A stretch of DNA of 64,000 bases from Pegea sp. RAD2-039 (Eukaryota; Chordata; Thaliacea; Salpida; Salpidae), in contig JAQGEQ010000297.1 of NCBI GenBank assembly GCA_034620365.1, forward strand, positions 186,001 through 250,000, written 5' to 3'. The notes beneath the pieces were generated by a model. That model had not been told where the DNA came from. It searched no databases and saw only the letters and a program-made list of their open reading frames with translations. Below are positions 5,951 through 59,520 of the stretch, piece after piece. The position numbers and the translations under genes are program-made. Positions within the stretch are counted from its first letter, which is position 1. Each line of letters starts with the position of its first letter.

Positions 5951-6174
5951 ACTGATCATGTTTGGTTTACAGGAGAGCCTGCAATCATTTTTTGTTAAAA
6001 AAACGAAAACATAACTCTTTCATCTTCAATCATTAAAGTAGATCTCTTAGTATACATATGTGCTACCCACTAACGTATTATGGTTAAGAAGAACTAGACA
6101 CAATTGGTTTATACTAAATAGAAAGTTTCTCCAACACAAATGTTTCATTGTTACTAACAATATATTTCCTAATT

Positions 6175-6329
6175 TTTTCCTTATTATTTCCTTATTATTT
6201 CCTTATTATTTCCTTATTATTTTCTTATTATTTCTTTATTATTTCCTTATTATTTCCATATTATTTCCTTATTATTTCCTTATTATTTCTTGATTATTTC
6301 CTTATTATTTCCTTCTTTATTATTTACTT
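6175..6329. repeat. 11-bp minisatellite (CTTATTATTTC)n
   Basis: About 13-14 imperfect head-to-tail copies of an 11-bp unit, one strand pyrimidine/A rich. The open frames over it (6060-6342) are low-complexity strings of L, I, F, S and Y created by the repeat and are not genes. Confidence 0.9.
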
Positions 6330-8993: not shown

Positions 8994-11900
8994 ATGGATG
9001 ATGTTGAATGTGTAAATTAAATTTTTTTTATTTGATTTAAGCAAAATAATTTAAGTGTTTTGTATTTAAATGATAGTGGGTAATATAAAATGTTGTAAAA
9101 TCTTATCATTGTTAGAAATAGCTGTTTCATTTATATAAATATTTTTATTACTCAGCCTAAAGTTCATAAACCCATTAAAGCAAAAGAGATCAAAAGTTTT
9201 CTTTATGCTTGGTGTGGTCAGAGAGGTTATAAACTTCATTATGAATACTCTGGAAAAGGGTCTCCACATGATATGCAGTTTACTTGCATTGTAAGCTACA
9301 ATTCTTTCATGATTTTCTAATTAATAAAATCTTGTTCAAAGCTTTCAGTAAGTGGCTTTGATAATTCAGAATGTGCTAAGGGTAGTTCTAAAAAAAAAGC
9401 TCAAAGCAGAGCTGCATGGAAGTTCGTGAATTATCTTATTCTTAATAATTTAATGTCACCTTTTGAAGCACCAGAACGACCAGTAAGTGTCTGTTTGATT
9501 TACATCCTCTGATTTGTCTCATTTAGGAACAAGACTTGAATGTTGATGATTCTTCAACTATATCCAATTCTGTTTCAAAATTTCACAAGGAAAGTGCAGA
9601 AGAAGTGAATTGCATAGAAGTCATATGAGAAAATATTTAGTAGTTATTTTTAGGTGTACAATAATGGTGGATGGGTTTTGAGTAATTGTGTGACGAGACT
9701 CACTGAATTTCTCCAACTAAATCATTCTTCTGCACCAACTTACCTATTTAGCAAAAATGGAACAGATCAAAATTTTGAATTTACCTGTAAGATGAAGATC
9801 ATACTTTTTATTAAACAGAAAGGTTTGTTGCACTTAATTCTTAAGCTACTATTCTAGGAGTTGTTTATTATAGGAGAATAAAATAAAGAAAACTTAGTTA
9901 TATTTCCTGCTGGATATTTTGATATAATTTTAACTACATATAAATTTTGAAAATTTAGGAATCAAGTATTCTATTATATAATATTTAATTTGAAATGTAT
10001 ATATTTAAATACAATTAGTTATAGTTATATTTATAGGTTCATTAATTAATTTCATAAATTGTCATAATCTAATAAAAAGCAAAGAAATTCCAATAGGTTG
10101 AAAAACGACTAATATATGAGATGAATTGATTTGAAACATGGCAATAGATAATAATAAATAAACTCGTTTTATAACCTTTTGGAATTTCTTTGCTTTTTGA
10201 AAACTTACTAGATTCTACAAGTTAGTAAGCTGTGATTTGATTAAACAATTAATGATTTAGATTTGATAATAGAAAGTTGCTCTATCACATGCTTCCAAAA
10301 TACAGCCTTTAACGTAAGATTACAAAACATTCAAATTGTTATATTTTTTCTTTAGCCAAAATGTCTTCAAGTTTATCTATAAGACTCATTAACTTAAAAA
10401 ACATATTTTTATCGCATAAAACCTCTTTTATAAGTTTCATAGCGGTTTTTATCTTACCTGCTTAGTCGCCCGTAAAATGTTTATTTTGAAGTTTAAATGA
10501 TCGCTACTTAATACAACAATCTCTTATGGCTACAAAATATTTACAACAAATTTATTTGTTGCTTCTGGTAGAATATAGTTCATCCGGACGAGGAAAAACT
10601 AAGAAGCAGGCTTCTTCAATGTGTGCTTGTATAATAGTTCGACAACTGTTTCATGAGGGGCTTATTGAAAGAGCCAATGGCCGTCATTTGCCTAAGGATC
10701 TCAAGTACTCTGCAGAAGACCAACAAGATGAAACGTTTTCATCTAACTCCAAACCTGAGGTAATCAAAAATCCGGATGTTTTAAGGTTGATCCGAGTAAA
10801 AGATACAATTGAGAAGATTAGCTAGAGATGAACTGATGTAAATTATCTCAAATTTTGCTGTTTAGGTGGGTCGGGATGTTGGTAAATTTGAAAGCTTGAA
10901 ATTAGAGGAAAGCAAACCAAAAAGCTCAGTAAGTTATTAAAGTGGTTTTTTGAGTTACTTTTAACTTGATGTTTTAGGAATTAGAATTTCAGAGTCCATC
11001 TTCTGATCAGGTTTGATTGATGTAAGATTTGATTTAATCTCTGAGTAATCTGTGTGTAACAGAAGAAAAAAGAAGAGGACCCGTTTTTTATAATACGGCA
11101 TTTCATCTATTCCAAACATTCTGAAGTTTATCCAAGCGATGGAGAATGTGACTCGCTGATGGAAGTGATTAAAAGAACAAAACATGCTTTGAAGAAAACA
11201 GTTGAAGATATGGAAGATCCAAGCAAAAAAATTGATCAAGAGTCAGTTGATTTATTTTTGTTGTATATTGAAACCCAAATCAGATTTTCTTCAGTTTAGA
11301 TTTTAAAATGTTTTGTAATCGATTATTTTGCTCTTATTTCAATTTTTAACTTGAAATGTTTCTTTGATAAGATGTTGTTATTCATAATTTTTAAACTGAC
11401 AAATAACATAACTTTTACAATATTTATTTTTTAGCAATTTTATTTGGCGGATCAAGGTAATGGGAGCCATTGCCAATCAAACCGTGTTGAAAAACGACCT
11501 CCAAGTTGAATATGCTCTTCTGAGCAGCTCTTTTGCAACTAAATCATTGTTATCACAAATTTACGAGCTTTTACCTAAGTACTTACCGGTAAGCAGTTCC
11601 TAACTACTTCATCCTCGTCTGACCATAATATTTCAGGGTAATAATTATCAACTATCGATTGATAAAAGTTCAATTAAACTGGTTTTCGACACATCAGAGT
11701 TTGATAAAACTTTTCCCGATGCAGAACCAATCTGTCATCCAGTTGTTGTCAAAATGCACTTAACTTCTGAAATCATGCTAGTATTTCGAAATGGTATGTA
11801 ATCAATATATAAACAAGTATTAAGCTTTAGTTTTTTCTAGGTGTTGGCAAAGTCAGATCAGATACAAAAGCTAAAATACCTTCTGATATGTTGGATATAA

Positions 11901-12588
11901 AAGATTGCTTACAAACGCTGACCCAATTACGACGCTGTGTGTGGTTTGAGGTATCAACTGATGTCACATTATTTTCAATAAAAAGCTCGAAATATTTGAT
12001 ATCAGAATAAAAAGATTTAATTACTCTGCCAGTCTTATTCAATAATTAAATCTGTTTACTAGCAATATGCAAGTTCACATCCCTACTACAGGCTTACAAT
12101 TCGATTGCTTCACTATCTTCGTAAGACTTCTGAAACATGGGCTTTACTGAATGAATGGGTAAGTAAAGTTTTCTCTACTGATGCTGTTGAACTGGAAACT
12201 TTTATCTGCAGGCAGTTGAATTGTTAACAGCAAATATCGAGACGTTTCCTACAAGCGTCGGTGGTGATATGTCTCTTGTAGAGTTTTTTGAAGCTATTCG
12301 TGAAGGGCTTTTGTTGCCAGGTTGATATTTAACTGGCTTTTAGACTTGGTTTTTACCGTTTTTCTAATGATGACAGGGGGCCCCAAAGTTCTAGATCCTT
12401 GTGAGATATCAAAAGTAGATGTCATCGGCTATTTGACTCCTCAAGTTCGCAAGAATTTGACATCAGCTGCTAAAGTGAGTTAGAAATCATCACTAGATGT
12501 CGTCGTGACGATTTGTTTTTGTTTGTAGTTGGTACTGGAACAATTTGCTGATAGCTTTGGTCACCTCGATAGTCTGAAAAGAGCTTGA
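8994..12588 (+). CDS. Double-dsRBD plus DZF-domain RNA-binding protein (DHX9-like N-terminus, NF90-like C-terminus), 16 exons
   Basis: Exons: 8994-9011, 9156-9290, 9342-9482, 9527-9604, 9654-9822, 10572-10759, 10866-10928, 10978-11010, 11063-11241, 11435-11588, 11637-11793, 11841-11950, 12063-12158, 12212-12320, 12377-12474, 12529-12588. All junctions are GT-AG and phase-compatible, giving 595 residues. dsRBD1 (about 17-84) opens EIKSFLYAWCGQRG and has SSKKKAQSRAAWKFVNYL, very like DHX9/MLE dsRBD1. dsRBD2 (about 130-208) opens GGWVLSNCVTRLTEFL and ends GKTKKQAS...VRQLFHEGLIE, as in DHX9 dsRBD2. Residues about 285-590 form a DZF domain: SKHSEVYPS, VMGAIANQTVLKNDLQVEYA, LTQLRRCVWFE, LRKTSETWALLNEW and DPCEISKVDVIGYLTPQ follow the NF90 order. 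No helicase follows. DZF proteins pair through this inactive nucleotidyltransferase fold, so an NF45-like partner is likely. Least certain joins: the six-residue first exon, and exons 5/6 across a 749-nt intron. AATAAA lies at 12765. Confidence 0.85.
10074..10198. mobile_element. 125-bp MITE-like palindrome inside intron 5
   Basis: Inverted terminal arms at 10074-10108 and 10164-10198 match at 32 of 35 positions; the left arm begins AAAAAGCAAAGAAATTCC. The loop between them is about 55 bp. It encodes no protein. It lies in the long intron splitting dsRBD2. No clear target-site duplication is visible beyond AT-rich flanks, so MITE is a structural inference; a hairpin regulatory element is the alternative. 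Confidence 0.65.
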
Positions 12589-12800
12589 ATGGTATTTTGA
12601 ATAATCAATTCAAACATATCGATGTTATATTCTTTTCAAATTTGTTTTGATTTTTTCTGGGTTGTGTGATCATTTTCTTGAAGTTATTTTTGATAATATT
12701 TTCATTATGCCATAAACATTATTATATTTAAGTTCTCTATATTTTATAAAATGGTGTCTAGATTAATAAAATATAATAATGACAAACTGGTAGTTATCTC
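12589..12800 (+). terminator. 3' UTR / polyadenylation region of the dsRBD-DZF gene
   Basis: T-rich sequence after the TGA at 12586-12588 with AATAAA at 12765-12770, followed by an AT-rich run. This is the most likely transcript end and also marks the start of the opposite-strand remnant. Confidence 0.5.
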
Positions 12801-12809
12801 TTACATTAC

Positions 12810-13700
12810 TGACAATTGATTTGAAGTGATTACAAGTTTACATCATACATCTAAAAGTTGCTTAAGATGTTTGTTAGTCAATTGGTTACGATGTCTAATT
12901 TTCATTCTAATCATTTTACCTAAAAGATACGAAAACAACATTTTAGATATTTACTATTTGGGTATTTTCAGTAGGAAACCAATTCCAAAAGTACAACAGA
13001 GTTTACATTTAAGCTCCTGTTTCAGCCTAAGTTATGTTTGTATCCTAGAAATTGTAACTGAATAAGATCATAAGCTGCAAAGGCTTCCATTGTCATAAGA
13101 TTTACCAACAGCTTAGCTAATAGCACTAAAGAAACTATTCGATGTTTCTTCTCGTTTACTTAATTGCTAATAAGTCTCTCTACGCATACAGTCTCTTAGT
13201 ATAAACAGATACCTCACCAAATAACTTTTGGTATTTTTACAACTTACTCTATCTTGTCAGGAGTTATTAAGCAATGCATAGTAATATCAACCGCAGATTT
13301 CCAAGCTTTTTCAGTTATCAACCTAAGAGATATCTTCCTTTCCTCCGACAAGTGATTTATTTTAGAGAATACGATCGCAAACTCAGTCAAGACAGTTAGT
13401 ACAGTGTAACCATCATACTTTTGTAAAAATTGTTCAGTTTCCATATTCGGCATCAACAGCATTTAGAAAAGAGCACAAATGATTGTAGTAGGTTGTGTTT
13501 GAGTATCCTGGTTCTATAGTTTCATATAAATTTATAAATACTATTAGAGAAGACTCATCACTACAGATTCTGCTTATATCTAACAATCAATTTAATTGAT
13601 CTTTTTGTGATCCTAGTTTATAGTTTGGAGAATGATTCACATATTTTAAACAGTAATAAAACTCTAAAAGTGAAGTTTTAAATCCTTTAGTTGACGACAA
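12810..13700 (-). pseudogene. Unidentified minus-strand gene remnant
   Basis: Reading from high to low coordinates, several coding-like segments follow one another: ISRICSDESSLIVFINLYE, then YSNTTYYNHLCSFLNAVDAE (about 13580-13450). After a frame change come EQFLQKYDGYTVLTVLTE and KAWKSAVDITMHCLITPDKI (about 13440-13245), ending at a GTAAGT-like donor. Then TVCVERLISN (about 13175), LLAKLLVNLMTMEAFAAYDL (about 13110), LKQELKCKLCCTFGIGFLLK (about 13020-12950), and after a TTTTAG acceptor KMIRMKIRHRNQL to a stop (about 12890-12815). Some joins look like introns, but at least the YGN/EQF and the KHNL/LKQ joins need frameshifts, so I call it a pseudogene. The composition suggests an all-helical protein; I do not know the family. 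The 13244-13462 frame alone is open for 72 codons. Confidence 0.4.
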
Positions 13701-26000: not shown

Positions 26001-27446
26001 AAAACGATTCAACTTCAAGCTTTGATTATAAGCTTTTAAAATATTAAACTCACTTATCGAAATTGAAAAGTTAGTAAATATATGAGAAATTTAGTTTAAG
26101 GTTGACTGTGCAAAGACAGTTACTAATTACGGTTTAAGTGCACCGTTTTATAAGTAATCTTAAGTTAAGGCCTATTAAACTTTTTTTGTAACTCTTTTAG
26201 TTACACAAAAACTAAATTTTCTCATATGCAAACTTTTTTCTAATATTTTTTCGTAAAATCTTCCAAAATGTCGTTACTTCTAAAATTTTTTATTTGATAT
26301 CTTCGTTGAAATACCAATTATAAATAATTTTTTTAAAGATACTGCAGAAGTATAACCAGCGTTTGAAAAGTGTTTAAATCAGTTTTGCTACATAAACTAG
26401 TGCAAAATTACTATTATTATTTGTGAGAAGCTTGTTCTATGAGAAAAAATGTAGAAATTTTGTTTTTGGAAGCATTACAAAATTGTTTACGTATGTGGAT
26501 TGTTTTCAGATAATTGTTGATCTTACTTTTTTGTTGAATTTTTATCGTTATGTCACTCTAGTATTGTTTAAACAATAATATAAATGAATTGAGATTTAGA
26601 AATTTGTTTCAAAAAGTTAGTGAATAAAAATTTACCTGTAAATGAGCTAGGCAAACGAAAGTAAAATTTCAATGTTTTAACCAGAATTTTGTTATCACAA
26701 AACTTAGGTTTGAATGTGACCATTGTTATATTACAGATTGATGTTTTTAATCTGAACGTGGCTTTTGTATTTATCCAAAAAGACAGGTATTGATAAACGA
26801 CTTGACAAGAGCTTGAAACAAAATGAATCAAATTTATTTTCTTTTTAATTTTTTTAAATTTTAATGTTAATTTTAATCATGAGTTTTCAAAGAGCTTTTA
26901 AAAGTGTTCATTCAAACTTAGTATCAGTCTAGCCATCTTCTAAAAAAGTTGTTTTAGTTTGTTGAAAATCAGGATTTTCTTAAAAATCAAAGTTAGACAT
27001 AGAATTCAAATAAAATAAAAGTGAGAAAGCTCTGAAAAAAAGCTGTAAGCTTACAGCAGTTTAATAAGATTTTGCTTTGTTAATCATAACGCAACAAGCA
27101 AACAAACGCTGTTTACAGTTTAAATTATCTAATCTATAAGATTCTATCCAGTAGATTTTTAGCTAAATCTGAGAAAGTAATTGTGAAAGTTAGTTTTTTT
27201 ATATTACAGAAAAAGTTTTAAGGACATTTTCAGAGCAATATTTTTTGTGAGTTATGACGCCAATTCTAGTAAGTAAGTATTAATATAAAACAACTATGTG
27301 CTTACATACGGACTTTAATGAGACATTTGTTTAGCTATTTAAAATCTTATAATATTTTTCTAGATTAAGTTTAAATTTCTAGAATAAGTTGTAGTTTAAA
27401 CTTTCTTTCTTTTAATTGTCCCAAAATCCAACCAGTAAGTTTTAAT
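23083..27446. other. Intergenic region; possible short coding remnant near 24 kb
   Basis: Mostly AT-rich with no gene. At about 23980-24130 (plus) a 49-codon frame begins MNQSFIYDTLLNIRCETTQ and ends LNLTLIKVGS, and just before it, in another frame, is VQEALKKKFW. The composition is protein-like but the family is unknown. The frames at 23189-23416 (plus) and 26568-26831 (minus) look like chance AT-rich ORFs. Confidence 0.35.
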
Positions 27447-28682
27447 ATGGAAAAAACTGTAAGGAATGATCGAAAAATCCCATGGGGTGTTCTGTGGAGT
27501 GGGAGCAAAGAAAAGTTGCTCCATTTCCTAGATGAAGATGAAAATATGTTTGGTCTTGTCAAAGTAAGACAAAAAATTTACTCGAGAAAAATTTTGATTA
27601 ACAATGGCGAACATTTAATTATTGACTGTCCAAGTTTTGTGGTGAAGAAGGTTGTGCAGGACGAACAAGTCAAAATTTTTTTTGTGACAAGTAAAAAAAG
27701 TGACCCAGAACTTTTTGGTTATAGTCACCTTCAACCAGGATTAATTGAACTCGATCCTAAGAAAGATGACTTTATTGTTAAATTTTACAATATGAAAATA
27801 GTTCTGTTCAAGAATTTTACTGAGGTTGCCCCTACAGTAAAAGAAGACATTAAATTTGTAAAAATAATTGGCAAGGGAAGATTTGGAAACGTTCTAAAGG
27901 GATTTTCAATGAGGCAAAAGAGGTTTATTGCAGTTAAAGTGAAATATATTGGTCAGAACAAAGCTAAGAATGATAAAAGTGAGAGAATTTTTCGAAGCGA
28001 ATTAGAGTGGATGCAAACATTAAAGCATCCAAATATAGTTCGTTTCTTCTATAATCAATCGCAGCTTGTTCCTGATACAATCTGCATGGAGTTTGCACCA
28101 TGTGGTGACATGGTCAACTATCTGCGCACTCATTTTGTCTGTGTTGGTTTGTCAAGAGTTGTTTTTTATCAACTTCTTTCAGCAGTTCGATACTTGCATT
28201 ACCAGAACCTGTTGCATAGAGATATCAGACCCGATAATATACTGATTTTTCAACAATCCAATCGATTAAAAATTAAACTAGCCGATTTTGGATCTCTTTG
28301 TAAAATGGTCAACAACCCAACCAAATTAGAAGATCAGAGTACAGTTTCGTTTTTACCACCAGAAATAATACGAACATTGCTTTGGTTTCCGTTTAAGAAT
28401 CCTTGGTTCAAGATGTCTACGGATATTTTTAGTTTAGGAGTTACTATGTATTATATCTTGCACTGTTACCACCCATTCAAAATCTTGTACGACAGCGAAA
28501 ATTTTAAGGATATTTTGTTAACTTGTACTTGGAGTCAAGACCATTACACACCACCGTTTGCTTTAGCTTCTGCAAGACTAAAGAGTCTGATTCTCCCGTG
28601 CTTGGATGTAAGCGAGATGAATCGTCCCTCTATTGATGATCTACTTAATCATCCATTTTTCAACTGTTACAAAAGATATTAG
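27447..28682 (+). CDS. Chk2-type Ser/Thr protein kinase with degenerate FHA-like N-terminus (kinase 1)
   Basis: Intronless, 411 residues. Residues about 12-125 look like a diverged FHA domain: WGVLWS matches the Chk2 PWARLW start, followed by FG at 35-36 and a beta-rich stretch. The phosphopeptide-binding Arg of FGR is Leu (FGLVK), and the conserved S-x-x-H is not kept, so phosphothreonine binding is doubtful. Kinase domain about 138-405: G-loop GKGRFGNV (142-149), ATP lysine K164, alpha-C Glu E185, catalytic loop HRDIRPDN (257-264), DFG 280-282. Oddities: Arg261 replaces the lysine of HRDLKPEN, the activation segment lacks the GTP/GTx stretch (STVSFLPPE), and PPE replaces APE. Catalysis is plausible but not certain. 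Its paralogue lies 4.7 kb downstream on the same strand. AATAAA at 28722. Function, inferred: checkpoint-like signalling. Confidence 0.9.
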   Translation: MEKTVRNDRKIPWGVLWSGSKEKLLHFLDEDENMFGLVKVRQKIYSRKILINNGEHLIIDCPSFVVKKVVQDEQVKIFFVTSKKSDPELFGYSHLQPGLIELDPKKDDFIVKFYNMKIVLFKNFTEVAPTVKEDIKFVKIIGKGRFGNVLKGFSMRQKRFIAVKVKYIGQNKAKNDKSERIFRSELEWMQTLKHPNIVRFFYNQSQLVPDTICMEFAPCGDMVNYLRTHFVCVGLSRVVFYQLLSAVRYLHYQNLLHRDIRPDNILIFQQSNRLKIKLADFGSLCKMVNNPTKLEDQSTVSFLPPEIIRTLLWFPFKNPWFKMSTDIFSLGVTMYYILHCYHPFKILYDSENFKDILLTCTWSQDHYTPPFALASARLKSLILPCLDVSEMNRPSIDDLLNHPFFNCYKRY

Positions 28683-31600: not shown

Positions 31601-33352
31601 CTTTTCCAAATAGAAAATGACTGATACCTTTACTACGTCATCGGTACATTAAAGGTTTTTTTTTTCAAGAACAATAAAGCATTTATATCTTGTTATAATG
31701 ATTTAATATATTAATAGTTAAATAGATAAACCAACAATTGTAAGTATTAAAACTAATTGATTAACTTACTTTTTTAAATTGAAATATTTCATTTCTTATA
31801 ATGATTTTCTAACTACTTCATTTTTAACTAATAAATAAAAATTTAAAATTTGAATAACAAGAAAATTGTGGTCTATGAAACAATTAACAAAACAAAAATA
31901 GTGATTTTTTTATTTATTTAAATCATTTGATGGCTGCATATTTTGAATTATTTTCTGAAGAATGCCTAAAATAATTGTTTTAACTGAAAAACAATTATTA
32001 TTAATTTCAAGTTATCGCTCAAAAATTGTACTAAATTACAAATTGCAATCTTAGATTATGCAGATTCTATATCAGGATACCTGACAAACAAATCTAGCAA
32101 ACATAATTTAAAGTTAATCAAGCGTGGAATTCTAGTTTGTCCGATAAAAAACTGAAATTTTGTTAAAAATATCATTAAAAACAACTTTAGAAAATTGAAA
32201 TTTCAATAAAAACAACAAAATAAAGGTTTAACCTTCTTACTCGTATAAAAATACTATTTTTGGTTCTTGTACAAAGTTGATTTTAATTGGTTAAAGTTAT
32301 TAACAGTTATAAGTAAAAAGCAAAGCTAAGGTAATGTAAAAATGAATTATCTTCTAGGTAAATTAAATGATGGAAAGAAAAAGTAAAATTAAAATTAGAG
32401 AAGTAATGTAAAGTTATGGCTTCAGTATTTCTGAAGATTTTCTTTTAAAAGTAAATTTCTTGCAGTTATACCAACAATCTTATGATAATTTCAGTATTTG
32501 AAATCTTAATAGTAAAAGTCTTATATATATATACTAGTTTAGGCTTAGCAAGAAATTTGTTTTCTCAAATAATCGTTTTATCTTGTTGAAACAGTCTTAT
32601 ATATATTTTAGAGGGTTATATATAGAGTAAACAGAATTATTAATGAGAAGCGATAATTCAAATATTGATTATTATCTTGAAGATGATAATAATATTTATA
32701 TAATTATATGATAAACTTTTGATAATCGCTCAGTTGTTTTATAGGCTAAGTTAAGAAAGCACAGTTAAACTAATTCAAGTCATTTATACCATTTTGAAAG
32801 TAGACTGTTTTTTTCAATGGAAAGCTGTTTTAGATAAACAACAAAGATGTAAAATTTTAAATTAACCATAAATAATCATTGAAAATCTTAACTGCGTTTT
32901 TCATTCAGCTTGCAGTAATGTTTAAAGGCTTAGCTATGGTATAAAACTAGTAATATATGGTTAGTATACAGGATATACAAGTTTTCTTTTATTACTAAAA
33001 GTTCTGTGGTTAAGGCATTTTTCTAGGAAATACATTAAAGCTAAGAAAGTAAGCCTTAATTTCGAAAGTTTTTTGTTTTTTTTTGTTTATATTTGTTTAT
33101 TTTCTCTAATACAAAAATTATTTCGATGAATATTTGATTTTCATTATTTAAAAAAAGTTTATTGACTTAAGCCCAGTTAGTTTTTTTTCAAACTTTTAAT
33201 CAACTTTTCAAAATAACAACTTTTGTCAGATTTTTTAGGGTTTGATTCTTAGTCTAAAGTATTTTTTAGTTAACAAACCTATAGTAAGATTCTAATCTGT
33301 TGTATTATACTTCTTTCTTATTCATTATCAAGAAAGACCATATACAAACGAA
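28683..33352. other. Spacer between the two kinase paralogues
   Basis: About 4.7 kb of AT-rich DNA with no recognisable exon; it includes the 3' UTR of kinase 1 and the promoter of kinase 2. A short (TA)n tract lies at about 32520. I saw no direct repeats that would mark the duplication boundary. Confidence 0.45.
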
Positions 33353-34573
33353 ATGTCAACTAGCAAGCCTGAAGTTTGGGGCATGATTTGGAGTGAGTGC
33401 GAAAGCAAAGTTGCAGCATATCTTAGAAATGACTTTAATAATTTTGAGATTCGAGACATTAATTCTAAGACAACAGCTGTACATGTATCTAACGATAAAC
33501 CTCTGTCTGCTCAACCACGCTTTGCCTTAAAACGAATCATACAAAAGAAAGCAGTAAACCATTATTTCATTACAAGCCGTGATTTCGACCCTAAGCTGCT
33601 TTTACATGTGTACCGACCACCACTTTCGCTAAAACTTCCTAACTCCAGGAGTGAGTTTCGATTTTATCGTGAGAGGCTGACTCTTGTTATTTTCAAGAAT
33701 ACTAGCGAGATGCCTAAGGAAGCTGAAGGACCTATAAAAATAATTTCGAAATTAGGAAGTGGAAGTTTTGGATCTGTCATGAAGTGCTATTCATTTTTGA
33801 GTGACAAAATTATGGCAATCAAAATGTTGAATAAAGCAGATGATACGGAGGCAGATGATTATAATGAGATCGTAAGAGAGATAAAAACAGCAGTTTTGCA
33901 GACTGAAAAAAAATTTTTGCTTTCAGTGGATCACCCAAATATAGTAAAAGCCTTTAAGTCTGAATCAAGACTAAGCAAACATATTTTTTGTATGGAGCTT
34001 GCTGATCAAGGAGACTTACACACTTATGTATCAAAGCAAAAGGTAACCGAAAAAATCGTGAAGATAATAGCACGTCAGCTTTTTGCAGCAGTCTCTTTTT
34101 TGCATGAAAAGGAGTTTTTGCACAGAGACTTGAAACCGGAAAATGTTCTGGTTTTTGGGATGCTGAACAGACCAGAAATCAAGCTCACCGACTTTGGTTC
34201 AATCTGTAAGACTTTTGATGATGATTATAGATTCGAAATCCAAGGAACTCCCGATTTTTTACCCCCAGAAGTACTAAGAAGTATTGAATGGCACCTTCCA
34301 GTGAATTACAAAAAAAGCACTGACGTTTTTAGCTGTGGAATTGTGCTTTACTTCACTTGCTACAAGCGACATGCTTTTAGAGGAATCTATAATGATAGTT
34401 CTTTTCTTAGAGATTTATTGACTGATTCCTGGACGGAAGAACAACTTACCCCTGAATTTCCTGCTGGTTCTCAAGAATTAAAAAGTTTCTTGAAATTGTG
34501 CTTAAAACCGAAAGAGCTAGAGAGACCCTCAGCTGCTGAATTATATGACCATTCTTGGCTCACAAAAAAGTAA
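33353..34573 (+). CDS. Chk2-type Ser/Thr protein kinase with degenerate FHA-like N-terminus (kinase 2)
   Basis: Intronless, 406 residues, paralogue of kinase 1 along its whole length. The N-terminal region (about 8-118, from WGMIWSECESKV) occupies the FHA position of Chk2. Its FGR equivalent is NFEIRD, and the S-x-x-H motif is not apparent. Kinase domain about 128-403: G-loop GSGSFGSV (135-142), K157 (MAIK), alpha-C Glu E185, HRDLKPEN (257-264), DFG 280-282, GTPDFLPPE (298-306) and a conserved Arg at 391 (ERPS). All catalytic residues are present, so this is probably the active member. PPE replaces APE, as in kinase 1, a change shared by the pair. Codon use is less AT-biased than the surroundings, as expected of a functional gene. 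AATAAA near 34999. Likely role, inferred from Chk2/Rad53: DNA-damage or cell-cycle checkpoint signalling. Confidence 0.93.
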   Translation: MSTSKPEVWGMIWSECESKVAAYLRNDFNNFEIRDINSKTTAVHVSNDKPLSAQPRFALKRIIQKKAVNHYFITSRDFDPKLLLHVYRPPLSLKLPNSRSEFRFYRERLTLVIFKNTSEMPKEAEGPIKIISKLGSGSFGSVMKCYSFLSDKIMAIKMLNKADDTEADDYNEIVREIKTAVLQTEKKFLLSVDHPNIVKAFKSESRLSKHIFCMELADQGDLHTYVSKQKVTEKIVKIIARQLFAAVSFLHEKEFLHRDLKPENVLVFGMLNRPEIKLTDFGSICKTFDDDYRFEIQGTPDFLPPEVLRSIEWHLPVNYKKSTDVFSCGIVLYFTCYKRHAFRGIYNDSSFLRDLLTDSWTEEQLTPEFPAGSQELKSFLKLCLKPKELERPSAAELYDHSWLTKK

Positions 34574-47739: not shown

Positions 47740-49890
47740 TTGAAATATGTTTTATATTCTACAAAAATGAAACGTATGTAATTCCTGAAAACCATCAAAA
47801 GAAATTAAAAGAAATTAAAAACTAACACATGTTTGAAAAGATAGAATGACAGTTGATGCTAGACCAACCTAACCTGTTTACTATTTTATATTTGAATTGC
47901 AGCAGACTGAAAGAGAATAGTTTAATAACAACAAATTTAATTTAGTAAAAATTGATAAAATCAATATGTTGAAAACCCTACTATACCTAAAGTTGTTAGG
48001 AACAATGTTAAAAACTGTTAAATAGCTTTTTCTAAATAAACCTTTTCAAATTGCATTTAATCATGCTACTAAACTTTCTAGAGACATGACAATAAATTAC
48101 CTCAATTAGCTTTTCAACTGAATCAGGCTTTTAAACCAAAAATGAATCTTAGGCTGCGTCTTAGCCTTATCAAAATGAAAGTGCTACAAGTGATTATCCA
48201 GTATAAAGCTACAACTTACCATTATAGCAGCAAAATAATGTGTCCAGGTCAGTTAGATGTAAGCGTACATTTTCTTTTCAGCTCCAGCAGCAAAGAAGAT
48301 AATTGTTTGCTTTCACCAACGATAGTATCTTCCATTTTCCAGATCTCCTCTCAGTTATTTCCTTTTGGATCACTTTTATTGAAGATTCTGAAACAAATTG
48401 CTTTTACAAAGACCATAAAAGTGAATTTTGTCAAACTTCTTACCTTTTTTTTGATTATGTTGCGTTCAATATTAACTTAAGACTAAAATTTCAAAATTTA
48501 AATATTTGTAAAGAAGTTAGTGCAATCTAGTATTGACGCCGTTAAAACCAAAAAAACATATTCTTATATGTAGTTCTTGATTCGCGATCTTTTTAAGTTC
48601 CAATAGTAATACCTTAAAGGGAAACCCTCAATACAGCGAAATCAAATGGAAATTTTTTATTTTTATATTATCTTTAACATCTTTTAATTTCATGTCATTA
48701 TTTATTACATAATCAGTAGCAGCATTTATACACTAAGTCATTAAAAATTTTATATTAAACAAAAAACTCAGTTAAGATTGGTTTAGAATTTCGATAAGTA
48801 AAAGTTAAAGTCTAAAAACATTCAGAGAATATAATGGAGGTTTATTATTATAGCAAATTAAGGAGACCTTATGCAACTATCTTCCTTCAAAGTAAATATA
48901 TTTTTTTTGTAAGCACACTGTATGGTCATTTGTTAATGAAAATGTTTAGAAAATTAACAAAGAAATATTGTTATCGATTGGTTATGGAAAAATAGATTAT
49001 AAATAGGCTCACTAGCACCCACTAGCTATACAAGAATAGCAAGTTTTTGAGTTTTTTTAAAGCTTCGATTTGTAGTCACAACATTATTACGCATTACTGT
49101 TTTTCCAAGAAAGAATATTCTGTTTAACAGGCTCTCTTTGACGGACTGTATCTCTTTTAACAAACAAACATTTTTTTAAAGAGAGCATATTATGTAAAGT
49201 ACTTTTCAAATGTGTAACAACTTAAATTAAAAATACATCTAAATTCGGTTTCACCTATAGCTAAGTCAAAATATCATAACTGATTATAAATTACTAAGTA
49301 CGAACTTTTGCTAGTTAAACAAACATGACCTAGTTGTTGACGACAGTTTTGTCAGACATATAATCTCTTAAGATTAGATAAAAAAATGTTTTACAAATGA
49401 TATACAGGCATCTAAAAGGAAATTTATTTGATCTGACAATCAAAATTAATTTAAAAACGAAGAATTAGACTAGAACTTATAAAATTTAAAGGTAATTCAT
49501 TATCAAATAAAAGATTTGAAAATGACATTTTATTTTGTGATAGAAGGTTTCATTTAAAGGCTTATTCAAAACCTGGTAGCCAATGATAATTTTGAAGCAA
49601 TCTTGCCTCAACATCTATCAGTTGTTTGTTTTTGAATTAAGATAACACTAAAACGGCTATTTCGGTAGCTTTAACTTACAAAACACCAATTAGCACTAAA
49701 ACTTGAAGCATGTTGGTGAGACAAAATGAACCAACTACCAAGTTAGTCTTCTTTTTGTAATTCTAAATTAAATAGTTTGGGCGAAAAGTTGATTTTCTTC
49801 ACTATATTATCAAGTAATAGCAGAAATGTAAACAATTTGATTTACAAATTTAAAATATTTTTTTAAATTTAGCTATGAAAAAGAAGATTT
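47740..49890 (+). repeat. Array unit 1 (type A)
   Basis: First recognisable unit; similarity fades upstream of about 47740. The frame at 48142-48480 is open for 112 codons and a second overlapping frame at 48303-48530 for 75. The FQIAFNHATKLSRDMTINYLN segment is present but followed by an early stop. Confidence 0.7.
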
Positions 49891-51980
49891 TCTTTAAAGT
49901 CTTGTATGTATTCTTATAAAGGTAAAAAGTCTGGAATTTCTCGAAATTATCAAAAGAAATTAAAAACTAAGCCCAATCTTGATTGAAACAATCGAATGAC
50001 AGCTGATGCTACAACAACCTTGCATCTGTTTACCATTTTATATTTGAATTGGAGCAGACTGATACAGAGTCCTTTAATTTCAACAAATTGAATGTAGTAT
50101 AAATTGATGAAGTCATTATAATCACAACCCTACTAGACCTGCAGTTGTTAGGAACAATTTAAAAAAATTTAAATAGATTTTTCTAAACAAACCTTTTGAA
50201 ATTGCATTTAATCATGCTGCTAAACTTTGGAGAGACATGACGATACGTTATCTCAATTATCTTTTTAACTGAATCAGGCTTTTAAGCCAAAAATGAAGTT
50301 TTAGGTTGCGTCTTAGCTTTATCAATATCAAGGTGCTACAAATGATTATCTAGTATAAAGTTACAACATACCATTATGGTAGCAAAAAATGTGTCCAGGT
50401 CAATGAGACGCAAGCTTACATTTTCTTTTCGGCTCAAGCAGCACAGAAGATCATTGTTTTCTTTCACCGACGGTAGTATCTTCCATTTTCGACATCTCTT
50501 CTCAGTTATTTCCTTTTGAATCACTTTTATTGATGATTCTGAAAACTAATTTCTATTAGAAAGGCCATTAAAACTGATATTTTCAAAAATTGTTCCATTT
50601 TATTTTGATTATGCTGGTTTCAAAATCTACTTAAGAACAACTTCTCAAGATTTAAAAATGTTTAATTAAGTTGGTGTAATATGTTCTTGATGTTACAAAC
50701 TAACCAATCAAAATCTAATATGTAGTTTCTGATTATCAGTATTTTCGGAACTATTAGTTTAATACTTGAAATGGAAAACCTTAAATCAGCCGAAATTAGA
50801 TGAAAATAATTCATCTTATTAAATTATCTGTGTCATCTCTTAATTTACACCTTTATTTTTATCATCAACACTGGCCGTTCCTTGCAGTTACTTTATGTTA
50901 TTACAGTCGTCGGTTGAAAGCACCTGAAAGTATAAAATCAGATTAGCGTATTGCTAAACAAAAATCAACATCAGTTTTTCTACAACAAAGAATTTAGAGA
51001 TCATTTCTTTAATAAAATATAATTTAGGATTGTTTTATACATAGACAAAATAGTTGTTTCTACAATAAATAATTTATAAATAGGATCACAAGCACCCACT
51101 AGCTAATTAAAATTTGCAGTTTTTGAGTTTTATTTAACTTCGATTTCTAGTTACAAACCTGTTACTTCTTAGTATATTTCCAAAAAATAATATTTTATTT
51201 AACAGTATCTCTATGAAAAATTGCGTCTACTCTTACAAACTATTATCTACTCAAACAGGCAATTACACGTAAATTACTTTTTCAAACAATGTAGCTAAAT
51301 AAATAGAAGTTATATCTGACTTTTGTCTTACCTATAGGTAAGTCGAAGTGTTTTGACTGATTATATATTAATAATTAGGAACGTTTGCTGGACAAAAGAG
51401 ACATGGGTTAATTGATGAGGACAGTTATGTCAAACCAAATATTTCATAAGATTAGATAGTAAGACTGTTTTATAAATGAATTACAGGCATCTAAAAGGAA
51501 ATGTATTTGATAAGACAATCAAACTTATTTTGAGAAGGAAGAATTAGATTAAAGCTTTTAAAATGTAAGGTAAATTCACTTATGTAATACAAAAATGGTT
51601 AAATTTTTTTTTTGGGATAGAAGGTTTTATTTGAAGGCTTAATTGAAACCAGGTAACCGATGATACTATTTGAAGCAGTCTTGCATTAACATTAATACGT
51701 TGTTTGCTTATTAAATAAGAACAGACTAAACCTCTTATTTCGCTAGGTTTAACTAACAAAATACCATTTAGAACCTATTCTAAAAGCATGTTGTTGTGAC
51801 AAAATGTCCTAAACACCAAGTCAGTGTTCTTCATTAAATTATAAATTAAATAGTTTTGTTGCAAAATTGATTTTTTTTTACTTTACTTGCAAGTAATAGC
51901 AGAAAGTTAACAATTTTGATTTACAAAGTTAAAGTATTTTCAAAAGTTAAGCTATTAGTAAGATTATATTCTTTAAAATC
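49891..51980 (+). repeat. Array unit 2 (type B, with A-like 5' part)
   Basis: Its 5' part resembles type A (CYNNLASVYHFIFELEQTD from 50007, and PFEIAFNHAAKLWRDMTIRY). Its 3' part is type B. This mosaic suggests gene conversion or unequal exchange between subtypes. The SVISFWITFI frame is broken by TGG to TGA. Confidence 0.65.
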
Positions 51981-54130
51981 TTGTATATACTCTTAGAAAG
52001 GTAGAAAGAATGTAACTTCTTCATATAAGAAAAAGAAAACAAAAGAAAATAAAAACTAAGACAAATCATGTTTGAAACAATAGAATGACAGTAGATTCTA
52101 GAACAAACCTGCATGTGTTTAGTATTTTATATTTGAATTGAAGAAGACTGAAACAAATTGGATTAATTTCAACAAATTGAATTTACTAAAAATTTATAAA
52201 GTCATTATGATCACAACCCTTCTAAACCTGCAGTTGGTGGAAACAATTTAAAAAAATTTTAAATAGAAATTTCAAAATAAACCTTTTAAATTCTATTTAA
52301 TCATGCCGCTAAACTTTCTAGAGATATGATGATACATTATGTCAATTAGCTTTTTAAACCAAAAGTTAGTCTTAGGTTGCGTCTTAGCCTTATCAAAATC
52401 AAAGTGCTGTGAGTGATTATCTAGTATAAAGTTCCAACTTACCATTATAACAGCATAAAAAACTGTCCAGATCAATTAGATGCAAGCGTACATTTTCTTT
52501 TCAGCTCCAGCAGAAAAGAAGATAATTGTTTGCTTTCACCGACGATAGTATCTTCCATTTTCCAGATCTCCTCTCAGTTATTTCCTATTGAATCACTTTT
52601 ATTAAAGACTCTGAAACAAATTGTTTTTACAAAGACCATAAAAGTGAATTTTGTCAAACTTCTTACCTTATTTTTTGATTATGCTGCGTTCAAAATTAAA
52701 CTTAAGACTAAATTTTCAAAATTTAGATAATTGTAAAGAAGTTAGTGAATACTAGTATTGACGCTGCTAAAATCTAAATAACAAATTCTTATATGTAGTT
52801 TTTTATTCGAGATCTTTTTAAGCTCCAATAGTAATACCTTAAAGGGGAATACTCAAAAAAGCAAAATCTGATAGAAATTATTCATTTTTAGATCATCTGC
52901 AACATCTTATAGTTTTATATCTTAATTTATATAATAAACCAGGAACGGCATTTATTCAATAATACATTAAAAATTTTATATGAAAAAAAACTAAGTAAAG
53001 ATTGGTTTAGAAGTTCGATATGTGAAAGTTTCAGTCTAAAAACATTAAGAGAACTTAAGAGATTAAACATTAATTGAGGTTTTTTCTTATAGTAAATGAA
53101 GGAGTCCTAATCCAACTAACATCGTTCAAAGTAAAAATGTTTTTTTAAACACACTGTATGGTCATCTGTTAATGAAAATGCTTGGAAAATTGATAAAAAA
53201 TAATATTATCGATTGGTAATGGAAAAACTTTATTATAAATAGGCTCACTAGAACCCACTAGCTTTTCCAGATTGGCAAGTTATTGAGTTTTTTTAATGCT
53301 ACAAATTCTAGTCACAAACATATTACGTTTAACTATTTTTGCAAAAACTAATTTTCTGTTTTACAGACTCTCTTTGATGTACTGTATTTACTTTAACAAA
53401 TAATTGTTTATTCAAAGAGAACATCTTACAAAAGGTACTTTTCAAGCAATCTAAAAAGTTAAATAGAAATTATATCTCACTTTTGTTTCACCTATAGTTG
53501 TGTCGAAGTTTTATGACTGATTATATATTATTGATTACTAACTTATGATAGAAAATACAAACATGACCTGGTTATTGACGACAGTTATGTTTGACCAATA
53601 ATCTCTTAGGATTAGATGAAAAAATGTTTTACAAATGATATACAGGCATCTAAAAGGAAACTTATTTGACTGACAATCAAACTTATTTTAAAAAGGAAGA
53701 ATTAGACTAAAAGTTATAATTTGTAAAGGTAATTCATTATCAAATGAAAGAATAGAGAAATGATATTTTCTTCTGATACAAGGTTTTATTTAAAGGCTTA
53801 TTCAAAACCAAGTAACCGATGATATTTTTTGAAACAATCTTGAATAGACATACATATGTTGCTTGATAATTAATAAAGAAAAGATTATAACGGTTATCTC
53901 GGTAACTTTAACTTACAAAACACCAATTAGAACTAAAACTTAAAGCATGTTGGTGAGACAAAATGAACCAACTACGAAGTCAGTATCCATCTTGTAATTC
54001 TAAATTAAATAGTTTAGTCGCAAAGTTGATTTTTTTTTCACTTTACTATCAAGTAATAGCAGACATGATAACAAATTTGTTTCACAAATTTAAAGTAATT
54101 TAAGAGATTAAGCCATTAGTAAGATTATTT
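51981..54130 (+). repeat. Array unit 3 (type A)
   Basis: The FEIAFNHAAK region is frameshifted and the SVISFWITFI frame has stops. A different frame (52530-52730, LSPTIVSSIFQISSQLFP) is open by chance or overlap. Confidence 0.65.
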
Positions 54131-55750
54131 TCTTAAAAATCTTGTATTTGCTCTTAAGAAATATAAAATTTGTAATTCCTCAAAAACTTTTGAAAAATTT
54201 AAAGGAAATTAACATGCAAAAAGATTCAGTCTTGAACCAATTATCGGACTGATGCTACTAAAACAACTTAACATATATATAGGGTTACTTTCAAGCAGAC
54301 CAAAACAAATTAATTTAATTTCAACAAAGTGATTTTACCAAATATCAGAAAATCATTACGATCGGAGTCCATTACTGCTGCAGTTATTGGGAACACATTT
54401 TGAAACTGTCAAATAGATTATTTAAACCAACTTTTTAATAAAATTTTTTATCATATTGCCACAGTTTGTAGATAATTCATCATACTTTTGCTCAATTACG
54501 TTTTCAACTGAGTTAAACTCTAAAACGAATGATCAATGTTAAGTAGCAATTGATCCATATCTATTAAGGATGCTTCCAGTGATTTTCTAGTATAAAGTTA
54601 CAACTTACCATTAAGGTAGCAAAAAAAAGTGTGTCCAGGTCAATTAGAAGCAAGCGTACATTTTATTTTCAGCTCCAGCAGCACAGAAGATCATTGTTTG
54701 CTTTCACCGACAGTAGTATCTTCAATTTTCTAGATCTCTTCTCAGTTATTTCCTTTTGTATCACTTTTATTGAAGACTCTGAAAACAAATTGTTATTACT
54801 GAGACTATAAAAACTGATATTTTCACAAATTGTTTCATTTTATTTTGATTATGTTGATTTCAAAATCTACCTAAGAACAACTTCTCAAGATTTAATAATA
54901 TTTAATGAATATCCCTTTTATTAAGCAGTATCTTTAATAAATATTTGATAGCATCTTTAACAGTATCTTTTTATGAGTATCTCTTTGAAAAACTGCGTCT
55001 ACTTTAACAAATAAATTTCTGTACAAACAGACCACATATTACATAAATTAGTTATTCAAACAGTTTAACAACTTAAATGAAAATTATAATTAATTTACGT
55101 CTTACCTATTTGTAAGTCAAAGTGTTTTGACTGATTATATGTTATTAGTTAGGAACGTTTGCTAGACAAAACAGGCATGAGTTAATTGATGAGGACAGTT
55201 ATGCCAGACCAAAAATTTCATAAGATTCGATGGAAAGATTGTTTTACAAATGAATTACAGGCATCTAAAAGAAAATGTATTTGATCAAACAATCAAATCT
55301 ATTTTGAGAAGGAAGAATTAGATTAAAGCTTATAAAATAGAAGTTAAATTCACTTATGTAATACCAGAATTGGAAAAATATATTTTTTTGTGATTGAAGG
55401 TTTTATTTAAAGGCTTAATTAATACTAGGTAACCCGAAATACTTTTTGAAGCAGCTTTGCATTAGCATCCATACATTGTTTGCTTAATTAATAAGAAACG
55501 ACTAAAACTCTTATTTCGGTAGGTTTAACTAACATAACACTCTTAGAACTTAATCTAAAAGTATGTTGGTGTGACAAAATGAACCAACTACCAAGTCAGT
55601 GTTCTCCATTAAATTCTAAATTAAATAGTTTTGTTGCAAAATTGATTTTTTTTTTCACTTTACTAGCGAGTAATAACAGAATTGTTAAAAATGTTGATTT
55701 ACAAAGTTAAAGTATTTTCAAAAGTTAAGCTATTAGTAAGATTATTTTCT
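54131..55750 (+). repeat. Array unit 4 (type B, internal deletion)
   Basis: Lacks about 470 bp found in unit 2 between about 50650 and 51200, including the GCACCCACTAGC block. The exon-like frame from the acceptor CTC at 54673 is open for 45 codons to TAA at 54808-54810 and ends SENKLLLLRL. Confidence 0.65.
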
Positions 55751-57900
55751 TTAAAATCTTGTATATATTCTTAGAAACGTAAAAAGATGGTAACTTCTCC
55801 AAATAATGAAAAAAATTAAAAGAAAATAAAAACTAAGCCAAATCTTGTTTGAAACAATAGATTGACAGTTGATGCTACAACAACCTTGCATCTGTTTACC
55901 ATTTTATATGTGAATTGGAGTAGACTGATACAGAATGGTTTAATTTCAACAAATTGAGTTTAGTAAAAATTGATAAAGTCATTATGATCACAACCCTACT
56001 AGACCTGCAGTTGTTAGGAACAATTTTTAAAAATGTTAAATATAAATTTCTAAATAAAACTTTTCAAATTGCATTTTATCATGCCGCTAAACTTTCTATA
56101 GACATGACGATACATTATCTCAATCAGCTTTTTAACTGAATCAAGATTTTAAACCAAAAGTTATTCTTAGGTTGCGTCTTAGCATTATCAAATTCCAGGT
56201 GCTTGAAGTGATTATCTAGTATAAAGTTACAACTTACCATTATGGCAGCAAAAAATGTGTCCAGATCAATGAGATTCAAGCGTACATTTTCTTTTGAGCT
56301 CCAGCAGCACAGAAGATCATTGTTTGCTTTCACCGACGGGAATCTTCCATTTTCGACATCTCTTCTCAGTTATTTCCTTTTGGATCACTTTTATTGAAGA
56401 CTCTGAAACAAATTTTTATTACCATGACCATAAAAGTATCAGTTGTCAATTTTTTGTATTTTCTTTATTATGTTGCGTTTAAAATTAACTTAAGACTAAA
56501 ATTTCAAAATATAGATATCTGTAAAGAAGTTAGTGCAATAAAGTATTGATGCCATTAAAGCCTACAAAACCAAATTCCTATATTTACTTTTTTGATTTTC
56601 CATCTTTTCAAGCGTTAACTGTAATATCTTACGGGGAAACCCTCAAAACAGCAAAATCTGATTCAAATTTTTTATTTTTAAGTCATCTGCGACATCTTTT
56701 AATTTCATATCTTTATTTATATCAAAATCAGCAGCCTTTATTCAATAAGGCATTAAAAAATTTATATTAAACAATAACTAAGTTAAGATTGATTTAGAAG
56801 TTCGATATGTGAAAGTTTCAGTGAAAAGACATTGAGAGAATATAATGGAGGTTTATTATTATAGCAAATTAAAGGGTCCTTATGAAACTATTTTTCTTCA
56901 AAGTAAATATGTTTTTTGTAAACACACTGTATGGTCATTTTTTAATGAAAATGCTTAGAAAATTGATAAAAAATATTGTTATCGATTGGTTTTAGAGAAT
57001 ATAGATTCCTAATAGGCTCACTAGCACCCACTAGCTATACAGAATAGCAAGTTTTTTAGTTTTCTTAAAACTTCGATTTGTAGTCACATAATTATTACAC
57101 ATTACTGTATTTCCAAGTAAGAATATTCTGTTTAACAGGCTCTCTTTGATGGACTGCATCTCTTTTAAAAAATAATTCTTTATTCAAAGAGAGCATATTA
57201 CGTAACGTACTTTTCAAATGTGTAACAAAATAAATAAAAATTTTATCTAACTTTCGTTTAACTTATAGCTAAGTCAAAATATTATACCTGATTATATATT
57301 ATTAATTACGAACTTTTGCTAGTCAAACAAACATGAGTTAGTTGATAACGACAGTTTTGTCAGACCAATAATCTCTTAAGATTAGATGAAAAAATTGTTC
57401 TACAAATTATTTACAAGCATTTAAAATGAAATTTATTTGATCTGATAATCAAATTTTATTTAAAAAGGAAGAATTTTATTAGAACTCATTAAATGTAAGG
57501 GTAATTCATTATCTAATAAAGGATTTGAAAAATGATACTTCAATTGTGATAGAGGGTCTCATTTAAAGGCTTTTTCGAAAACAAGGAACTAATGATATTT
57601 TTGGAAGCAATCTTGCATAAACATACATACGTTGTTTGTTTTTCAATTAAGAAAATACTAAAACTGTTATCTCGGCAGCTTTAACTTACAAAACACCAAT
57701 TAGAACTAAAAATAGAAGCATGTTGGTGAGACAAAATGAACCAACTACCGAGTCAGTCTTCTTCTTGTAATTCTAAATTAAACAGTTTAGTCGCAAAGTT
57801 AATTTTTTTCCTGTACTATCAAGTAATAGCAGACATTATAACAAATTTGATTCACAAATTTGAAGTATTTTCAAAAATTAAGATCCGAGAGAGATTCTTT
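55751..57900 (+). repeat. Array unit 5 (type A)
   Basis: Holds the longest intact upstream frame, 55954-56139 (61 codons), reading KVIMITTLLDLQLLGTIF and later AFYHAAKLSIDMTIHYLNQL. The downstream frame has a 2-nt deletion near 56338. Confidence 0.7.
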
Positions 57901-59520
57901 TCTATAAAGGCTTGTAATTACTCTTAGAAATTATAAAGTTTGTAATTCTTGAAAATCATCAGAAAAATTTCAAGGAAATTCACATGCGAATAGATTCAGT
58001 CTTCAGCCAATTATCTGACAGCTGCTACTAAATCAACTTAAGATATATATACCATTTTATGTGTGCTTATAAGCATACCAAAACAAACAAAACTAATTTC
58101 AACAAATTGATTATACCAAAAATCAGTAAAATCATTATGATCGGTGTCCATTACTGTTGCAATTATTGGGAACACATTTTGAAACTGTCAAATAGATTAT
58201 TGGAGTAAACCTTATAAAAAGATATTTCATCATACTGCCAAAGTTTATAGATAAATCACGATACTTTTTCTCAAACACATTTTCAAATGAGTTAGGTTCT
58301 AAAACGAATAATCAATTTTAAGAAGAAATTTATCCTTTTCTAATAAAGATGCTACAAGTGATTATCTAGTAAGAAGTTACAACTTACCATTATGGTAGGA
58401 AATAAACCTATTATAGTCAATAATATGCAGCTGTGTTCTCATAAAGTCCTATGCATCTGGCAGTACAGAAGATCCTTGTTTGTTGTCATCGACTATAGTA
58501 TTTTCCTCTTTAAGAGATATTACGGCAGGTCTTGTAAAGTTATCATCTTTTGGATCACTTTTATTGCAGACTCTGAAAACGAATTTCTATTAGAGAGGCT
58601 ATAAAAACTGATGTTTTCAAAAATTGTTTCATTTTATTTTGATTATGTTGATTTCAAAATCTACTTAATAGCAGCTTTTACAAATTAAATAATTTTTAAT
58701 GATGTTGTTGTAATATGATCTTGATGTTACAAACTAAACTATCAAAATCTAATAAGTAGTTTTTGATTAGTGAACTATTAATTTAATACATGAATTGCAA
58801 AATCTCAAATCAGCTAAATTAAATGAAAATAATTTATTTTGTTAAATTATCTGTGTCATCTCTAAATTTACGCCTATATTTATATCTTTAGTATTGGCCG
58901 TTCTTTGCTGTTACTTTATGGATTGGCAGAGATTGGTTGAGAGCATCTGAAAATAAAACTTTAGATTAGTGTATTACTAAACACAACAGCAGTTTTTGTA
59001 TCATTTAAAAATCATATCTTAAATAAAATATAAATTAGGATTGGTTTTTACTTAGACAAGGAGATAGAAAATATTTGTTTGTATAATAAATAGCTTATAA
59101 ATAGGCTCACAAGCACCCACTAGCGACTTAATATTTGCAGTTTTTGAGTTTTATATAACTTCTATTTCTGGTTACAAACTTGTTACTTATTAGTATGTTT
59201 CAAAAAATAATATTTTATTTAACAGTATCTCTAAGAAAAATTGCGTCTACTTTAACAAATAATTATCTATTCAAACAGACATTTATATGTAAATTACTTT
59301 TTCAGACAGTGTAACAAATTAAATTGAAATTATATCTAACTTTGGTTTTACCTATATTTAAGTCGAAGTGTTTTGACTGAATATGTATTATTAAATAGGA
59401 AAGTTTGCCAGACAAAACATACATCAGTTAATTGATGAGGACAGTTAAGTCAGATCAAAATTTTAAATTTTAATTTTAAATTAAAACTTAATCAATTTTC
59501 AAAAATTAAACTATCAGAAA
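57901..59520 (+). repeat. Array unit 6 (type B, 3' deletion)
   Basis: The frame at 58392-58604 is open for 70 codons and ends SENEFLLERL at the same stop as units 4 and 8. About 490 bp are missing near 59460 at an AT-rich junction. Confidence 0.65.

Follow-up and report, generated by a model that had tools for sequence, protein, structure and literature searches.

NF45 (ILF2) is a DZF protein without double-stranded RNA-binding domains (dsRBDs), and a 2012 study by Wolkowicz and Cook reportedly names NF90, Zfr and SPNR in its title. In the excerpts of the literature used here and below, the DZF of NF90 is described as pairing with the similar domain of NF45, Zn72D/Zfr as possessing an NF45-pairing domain, and NF90 and SPNR as vertebrate-specific proteins with a proposed origin by joining of ADAR2 dsRBDs to the Zfr DZF (PMC4770229); the dsRBDs are reported to drive the binding of double-stranded RNA (dsRNA), with the DZF pair raising the affinity more than 10-fold (PMC11952958). 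A-to-I editing is affected both by DZF proteins and by DHX9/MLE (PMC8304401), and NF90, NF45 and RHA/DHX9 have been recovered together on structured RNA (PMC3046124). Here we analyze a gene in a 64-kb stretch of the Pegea sp. RAD2-039 genome (hereafter, the window: contig C260, positions 186001-250000, of a 105.7-Mb assembly of 387 contigs, the single source of all contigs and loci labeled C and L below) that is predicted to encode two DHX9/MLE-type dsRBDs followed by a DZF of the ILF3/ZFR class. On balance, we think it likely that this is a real coding gene from a small family, the product of which would work in an NF90-like manner via NF45 and the origin of which would be independent of that of NF90. 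No dsRBD-dsRBD-DZF protein was found among the best-ranked titles and abstract openings of the open-access literature; automatic domain databases, which were outside that search, may list this architecture.

The gene occupies positions 8994-12588 of the forward strand of the window, where 16 exons, placed by hand and checked by script, are separated exclusively by GT-AG introns with consistent phases and yield a predicted protein of 595 amino acids (595 codons) terminated by a TGA codon at 12586-12588. Ten of the 15 introns are 44-56 nucleotides long, and the longest one, intron 5 (749 nucleotides), falls inside dsRBD2, which is encoded by exons 5 and 6. The Pfam scan of the protein listed 5 families, including dsrm in two stretches (whole-protein E-value 5.7e-19), DZF_N (1.8e-8) and DZF_C (2.2e-8), all above the gathering cut-offs; membership in the DZF superfamily is indicated by scores of 35.1 bits for DZF_N (cut-off 27.1) and 34.7 bits for DZF_C (cut-off 24.3), and neither a helicase (no DExH core) nor a zinc-finger family was among the families listed. 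The first-pass annotation had proposed a dsRBD pair fused to a DZF in the absence of a helicase and in the order opposite to that in NF90, and both points hold: the dsRBDs span residues 19-219 and the DZF residues 287-583, with only about 12 residues remaining after it. Its chain of 16 linked exons stands inasmuch as all of them could be placed in phase with GT-AG boundaries, but exon 1, together with its ATG, cannot be relied upon, not being conserved in the copies of the gene described next.

A search of the genome with the window protein as the query produced 47 matches, all 47 on contigs C260, C12, C31 and C35. Splice-aware alignment recovered the same 16 exons, intact, at L026 (C12, approximately 76.2-79.8 kb, plus strand) and L027 (C31, approximately 202.3-205.9 kb, minus strand); each of these copies is 91% identical to the window protein at the amino acid level, contains no stop codon or frameshift, has TGA as the next codon after the alignment and retains all splice sites. 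The two are inverted relative to each other and 99.05% identical. C31 at its end and C12 at its start share an overlap of 4600 bases with 99.8% identity, so that L028, a partial copy, represents L027 a second time; C31 and C12 are probably contiguous, with some 75 kb between the two inverted copies of the gene. Furthermore, a diverged paralogue, L029 (C12, 950 kb), which is 44% identical to the window protein, likewise encodes dsRBD1, then dsRBD2 and then a DZF, and exons 2, 3, 10, 13 and 15 are equal in size in the two genes (the first and last exons of L029 are insecurely modelled). The dsRBD-dsRBD-DZF architecture is accordingly that of a small gene family in this genome rather than a one-off; judging by the sequences, L029 is the conservative member of the family, whereas the duplicate in the window is young and changes rapidly. 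A third dsRBD was considered in L029, where one segment resembles DHX9 dsRBD2 in its first half, yet the hand-joined piece matched 0 Pfam families, the automatic model crosses a stop codon and the position in the tree is unsure, so that this domain is unproven.

Comparison with solved structures and phylogenetic analysis agree on the provenance of the dsRBDs. For the N-terminal half of the window protein, the best 12 of 18 PDB matches were to DHX9/MLE and none of the 18 was to ILF3, although ILF3 chains with dsRBDs were in the same set; for dsRBD2 together with the linker that follows it, the best 10 of 19 matches were to DHX9/MLE, as were all 12 matches of the dsRBD part of L029. In a tree of 18 dsRBD rows, the first dsRBDs of the window protein and L029 group with DHX9/MLE dsRBD1 (84/94) and the second ones with DHX9/MLE dsRBD2 (94/92), with the ILF3 and ADAR2 domains forming a separate group (95/92); the rows in this tree are short (82 columns) and only 2 of the 15 inner branches are starred. 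Thus, on sequence grounds, the window dsRBDs are of the DHX9/MLE type, each grouping with its own counterpart, as had been proposed at the outset from motifs, and the phylogeny, one of the two refutation tests that had been named for the fusion, places them with DHX9 and not with ILF3. In MLE, 8 residues of dsRBD1 and 9 residues of dsRBD2 are listed as RNA contacts (PMC6451107). The window dsRBD1 has identical residues at 4 of the 8 positions (K4, S5, K53 and K54), compared with 5 of 8 in both DHX9 and L029.

The DZF produced 7 PDB matches at E-values up to 1, namely, 3 ILF3 chains (best 1e-25), 2 ILF2 chains (best 2.3e-7) and 2 chains of CatSper-epsilon (0.19-0.2). In a 9-row DZF tree, the window protein and L029 are sisters (100/100), and the pair joins the ZFR-like paralogue on C35 at 80/86. 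In terms of identity, the window DZF is as distant from ILF3 (29-31%) as from C35 (30%); the identity to ILF2 is 31-32% over 112 columns and that to the product of C8 is 21% over 231 columns. The assignment to the ILF3/ZFR class can be considered safe at the sequence level, and within this class, the domain leans, weakly, towards ZFR rather than ILF3/NF90. The NF90-like character ascribed to this DZF in the first-pass annotation survives as membership in the class but not as a specific link to NF90; in the tree, the domain joins C35, weakly and on long branches.

The same genome encodes NF45 (contig C8; 68% identity to ILF2 over 112 amino acids). The C35 locus (L030, C35:148500-158400, minus strand), which we take to be ZFR-like from its layout and from ZFR motifs, combines zf-met, above the Pfam cut-off, with a DZF; the zinc finger is preceded, at a distance of about 0.4 kb and on the same strand, by a DHX9-type dsRBD1 (23.5 bits against the Pfam cut-off of 23; DHX9/MLE in the best 7 of 9 PDB matches). 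Judging by their position, the dsRBD, the finger and the DZF would belong to one gene; no dsRBD2 was seen in C35. The introns of this locus are rich in simple repeats. Another DZF of the ILF3/ZFR class is encoded on C246, where the N-terminal region was seen by eye to finish, like the others, with an LPxR motif; Pfam returned 0 families for this region, and no claim of a dsRBD is made. ADAR deaminase domains are found at two loci, on C29 and C46. Canonical ILF3 was not found, as 0 of 13 dsrm matches follow a DZF locus in a genome searched exon by exon, where split dsRBDs could be missed; the dsrm pair on C6, the sole dsrm locus examined outside the DZF genes, is TARBP2-like. When DHX9 was sought with the L029 dsRBDs (E-values up to 10), all 20 matches fell at DZF loci, and a search with the helicase core of Drosophila MLE, a query typed by hand (E-values up to 1e-5), gave 23 matches at 10 loci, with seven longer than 160 amino acids at 30-43% identity and the shorter ones at 29-52%. 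Four of the 10 helicase loci (C67, C32, C293 and C1:6.08 Mb) are presumably other DExH helicases, judging by motifs rather than by a tree.

The architecture of the window protein, the kinship of each of its domains, the copies with the same exons and the presence of an NF45 gene can all be read from the sequence itself. By analogy, the window DZF would pair with the NF45 encoded on C8, as published for NF90, SPNR and ZFR; dsRBD1 and, more weakly, dsRBD2 would recruit the pair to double-stranded regions of RNA, and RNA splicing, editing or stability might be affected in the manner of NF90. The gene would have originated when DHX9-type dsRBDs were placed before a ZFR-type DZF, in an event separate from the one that produced vertebrate NF90, and a fusion joining interaction partners would be compatible with the co-purification of NF90, NF45 and RHA (PMC3046124).

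Several observations weigh against this scenario. Comparison of the window gene with L026 yields dS of 0.044 and dN of 0.039, with a ratio of nonsynonymous to synonymous substitution rates (dN/dS) of 0.89, and that with L027, a dN/dS of 0.99; by region, on few changes, the values against L026 are 0.48 for dsRBD1, 0.54 for dsRBD2 and 1.10 for the DZF. The exons are no closer between the window gene and its copies than the introns (96.1% and 97.1% identity, respectively), and the number of nonsynonymous changes (54) is similar to the mean of 50.1 (standard deviation 3.9) obtained in a neutral simulation in which 70 substitutions followed a spectrum derived from introns; at the amino acid level, no trace of recent purifying selection is seen. 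In L026, L027 and L028, the codon aligned to the ATG at 8994 is ATC. Most of the MLE-type minor-groove contacts are lost from the window dsRBD2, where only 2 of the 9 residues are identical to those of MLE (K224 and K225), compared with 6 of 9 in both DHX9 and L029; the residues matching MLE K171 and H196, where single reverse-charge changes at either position weaken MLE binding (PMC6451107), are lost, and this domain probably binds RNA less well. The placement of the window DZF with C35 is weak, with long branches meeting, vertebrate ZFR outside the tree and the ILF2 rows partial. Finally, the DHX9 helicase was not found in exon-by-exon searches of one assembly, one of them with a hand-typed query, and its loss from the genome appears likely although unproven.

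The points on substitutions, the ATG and dsRBD2 are those expected if the window copy were a recent duplicate turning into a pseudogene, with only L029, and perhaps one copy too, being functional: near-neutral dN/dS, exons diverged as much as introns, nonsynonymous changes at the neutral level, a non-conserved ATG and loss of dsRBD2 contacts would all fit. We nevertheless regard this as unlikely, given that no stop codons were observed compared with a mean of 4.25 under the neutral simulation (P(0)=0.0125), that 0 of the 4 indels in the gene span are in exons, and that all splice sites are kept in three copies; the absence of stops and the location of the indels outside exons support a coding function. 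That two neighboring genes, one for a dsRBD protein and one for a DZF protein, were merged by eye could be suspected from the 749-nucleotide intron and from two linker exons of only 63 and 33 nucleotides between the dsRBDs and the DZF. However, two copies retain these linker exons in frame, and dsRBD2 itself spans the long intron; because two copies keep all 16 exons and the diverged paralogue keeps the domain order, such merging is very improbable and was rejected, so that the proposal of a single gene is upheld, with the copies and the paralogue standing in for transcripts.

As to the origin of the family, the dsRBD-DZF order could be old, an ancestral ZFR-type gene having possessed an N-terminal DHX9-type dsRBD that was lost in other animals, in which case the window gene would have lost the zinc fingers and no new fusion would be involved. 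The layout of C35, with its DHX9-type dsRBD1, just above the Pfam cut-off, upstream of the finger and the DZF on the same strand, is consistent with such a history, as is the joining of the window and L029 DZFs with C35, but dsRBD2 is not seen there, and we consider this route possible yet rather unlikely. A rearranged NF90/ILF3, with the dsRBDs moved to the front, might be suggested by ILF3 being the best match of the DZF among solved structures; this is hardly credible and was rejected, considering the lack of ILF3 among the 18 PDB matches of the dsRBD part, despite the availability of ILF3 dsRBD chains, and the separation of the window dsRBDs from ILF3/ADAR2 in the tree. Returning to a functional NF90-like family of independent origin, we can only tentatively suggest that an invertebrate lineage without the DHX9 helicase rebuilt an NF90-like protein convergently, with a C35-type gene as a possible surviving intermediate and the new gene multiplying and changing fast.

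The history of the window copy shows two further features. Identity to the C12 copy is 93-99% in 500-base bins from 9000 to 13499 and 83-91% in the bins on both sides, which suggests gene conversion between copies over the gene (approximately 9000-13500). Among the amino-acid changes, 10 of 51 are concentrated within residues 431-448 (P=0.0002), a fast-changing stretch of the DZF. With respect to the start of the gene, no ATG is present in the L029 stretch aligned to exon 1, and the copies support the window protein only from exon 2 (9156) onward; the true start may be located in an upstream exon outside the present model. Exon 2 begins in phase 0, and in flatworms, spliced leaders are described as ending in an ATG usable as a start (PMC12582326). 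A spliced leader was not found in the assembly with either of two patterns, one giving 0 matches and the other only matches with 3 mismatches, at close to the background level (23, against 15 in the reversed control). A search of the assembly for COX1 likewise found none.

Table. Exons of the dsRBD-dsRBD-DZF gene and the intronic inverted repeat (window coordinates)
Feature	Position	Strand	Evidence and remarks
Proposed exon 1 (MDDVEC), with a doubtful start codon	8994..9011	+	Phase 0, GT donor; three aligned copies lack the ATG
Exon 2, first half of dsRBD1	9156..9290	+	Gene model, Pfam, copies
Exon 3, second half of dsRBD1	9342..9482	+	dsRBD1 ~9174-9482 over exons 2-3; gene model, Pfam, PDB matches
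Exon 4, linker between dsRBDs	9527..9604	+	Gene model, copies
Exon 5, first part of dsRBD2	9654..9822	+	Gene model, PDB matches
Exon 6, remainder of dsRBD2 (to ~10687) and linker	10572..10759	+	Gene model, PDB matches
Exon 7, linker (63 nucleotides)	10866..10928	+	Gene model; matched in both copies
Exon 8, linker (33 nucleotides)	10978..11010	+	Gene model, copies
Exon 9, linker end and DZF_N start (SKHSEVYP motif)	11063..11241	+	Gene model, Pfam, PDB matches
Exon 10, DZF_N	11435..11588	+	Gene model, Pfam, PDB matches
Exon 11, DZF_N	11637..11793	+	Gene model, Pfam, PDB matches
Exon 12, DZF_N	11841..11950	+	Gene model, Pfam, PDB matches
Exon 13, DZF_N end and DZF_C start	12063..12158	+	Gene model, Pfam; 96-nucleotide exon also modelled in L029, C246, C35
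Exon 14, DZF_C	12212..12320	+	Gene model, Pfam
Exon 15, DZF_C (DPCE motif)	12377..12474	+	Gene model, Pfam, PDB matches
Exon 16, DZF_C end and stop TGA	12529..12588	+	Gene model, copy comparison
Inverted repeat in 749-nucleotide intron 5: two 35-nucleotide arms, 91% complementary, 55 nucleotides apart	10074..10198	.	Repeat analysis

The inverted repeat, located in an intron of a gene for a predicted dsRNA-binding protein, could represent a small mobile element or form a self-regulating dsRNA. Upstream of the gene, an 11-bp minisatellite (13.8 copies, 6163-6314) immediately precedes the duplicated block, which begins at 6323. Elsewhere in the window, two long intronless open reading frames on the plus strand (27375-28679 and 33296-34570) encode protein kinase domains (Pkinase E-values 3e-47 and 3.4e-53, respectively) and appear to be paralogous, each having an additional N-terminal region; the best solved-structure match of the first one is RAD53 (2.7e-23), close to many other kinases. 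A degenerate repeat array extends from 47874 to 63700, with copies approximately 2.1 and 3.8 kb apart and 13 repeat families at 60-92% identity. No RNA families (at the gathering threshold) and no tRNAs were detected in the 64-kb window.

The family represented by the window gene would be a parallel case to NF90, with DHX9 dsRBDs in front of the DZF. If so, it would constitute a second dsRBD-DZF protein, with another source of dsRBDs and the opposite order, would suggest that the linking of dsRNA binding to an NF45-pairing module is repeatedly favoured, and would allow separating those behaviours of NF90 that need the domain order from those that need the parts only. As no DHX9 helicase was detected in this assembly, one may ask whether the family took over some of the dsRNA duties of DHX9.

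Among the described proteins, NF90/ILF3 and SPNR/STRBP resemble the window protein in having two dsRBDs and one ILF3/ZFR-class DZF, so that pairing with NF45 would be expected. In NF90, however, as far as the excerpted source describes it, the DZF comes first and is followed by ADAR2-like dsRBDs (PMC4770229), whereas in the window protein, the DHX9-type dsRBDs come first and the chain ends shortly past the DZF. In DHX9/MLE, dsRBD1 precedes dsRBD2, as it does in the window protein, from which the helicase family of DHX9/MLE is absent according to Pfam. The C-terminal DZF is common to the window protein and ZFR/Zn72D, in line with the weak grouping with the ZFR-like C35, but the window protein has two dsRBDs instead of a zinc finger, and Zn72D is, in the excerpt of PMC4770229, without a dsRBD. 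With NF45/ILF2, the window protein shares the DZF, and NF45 would be its likely partner.

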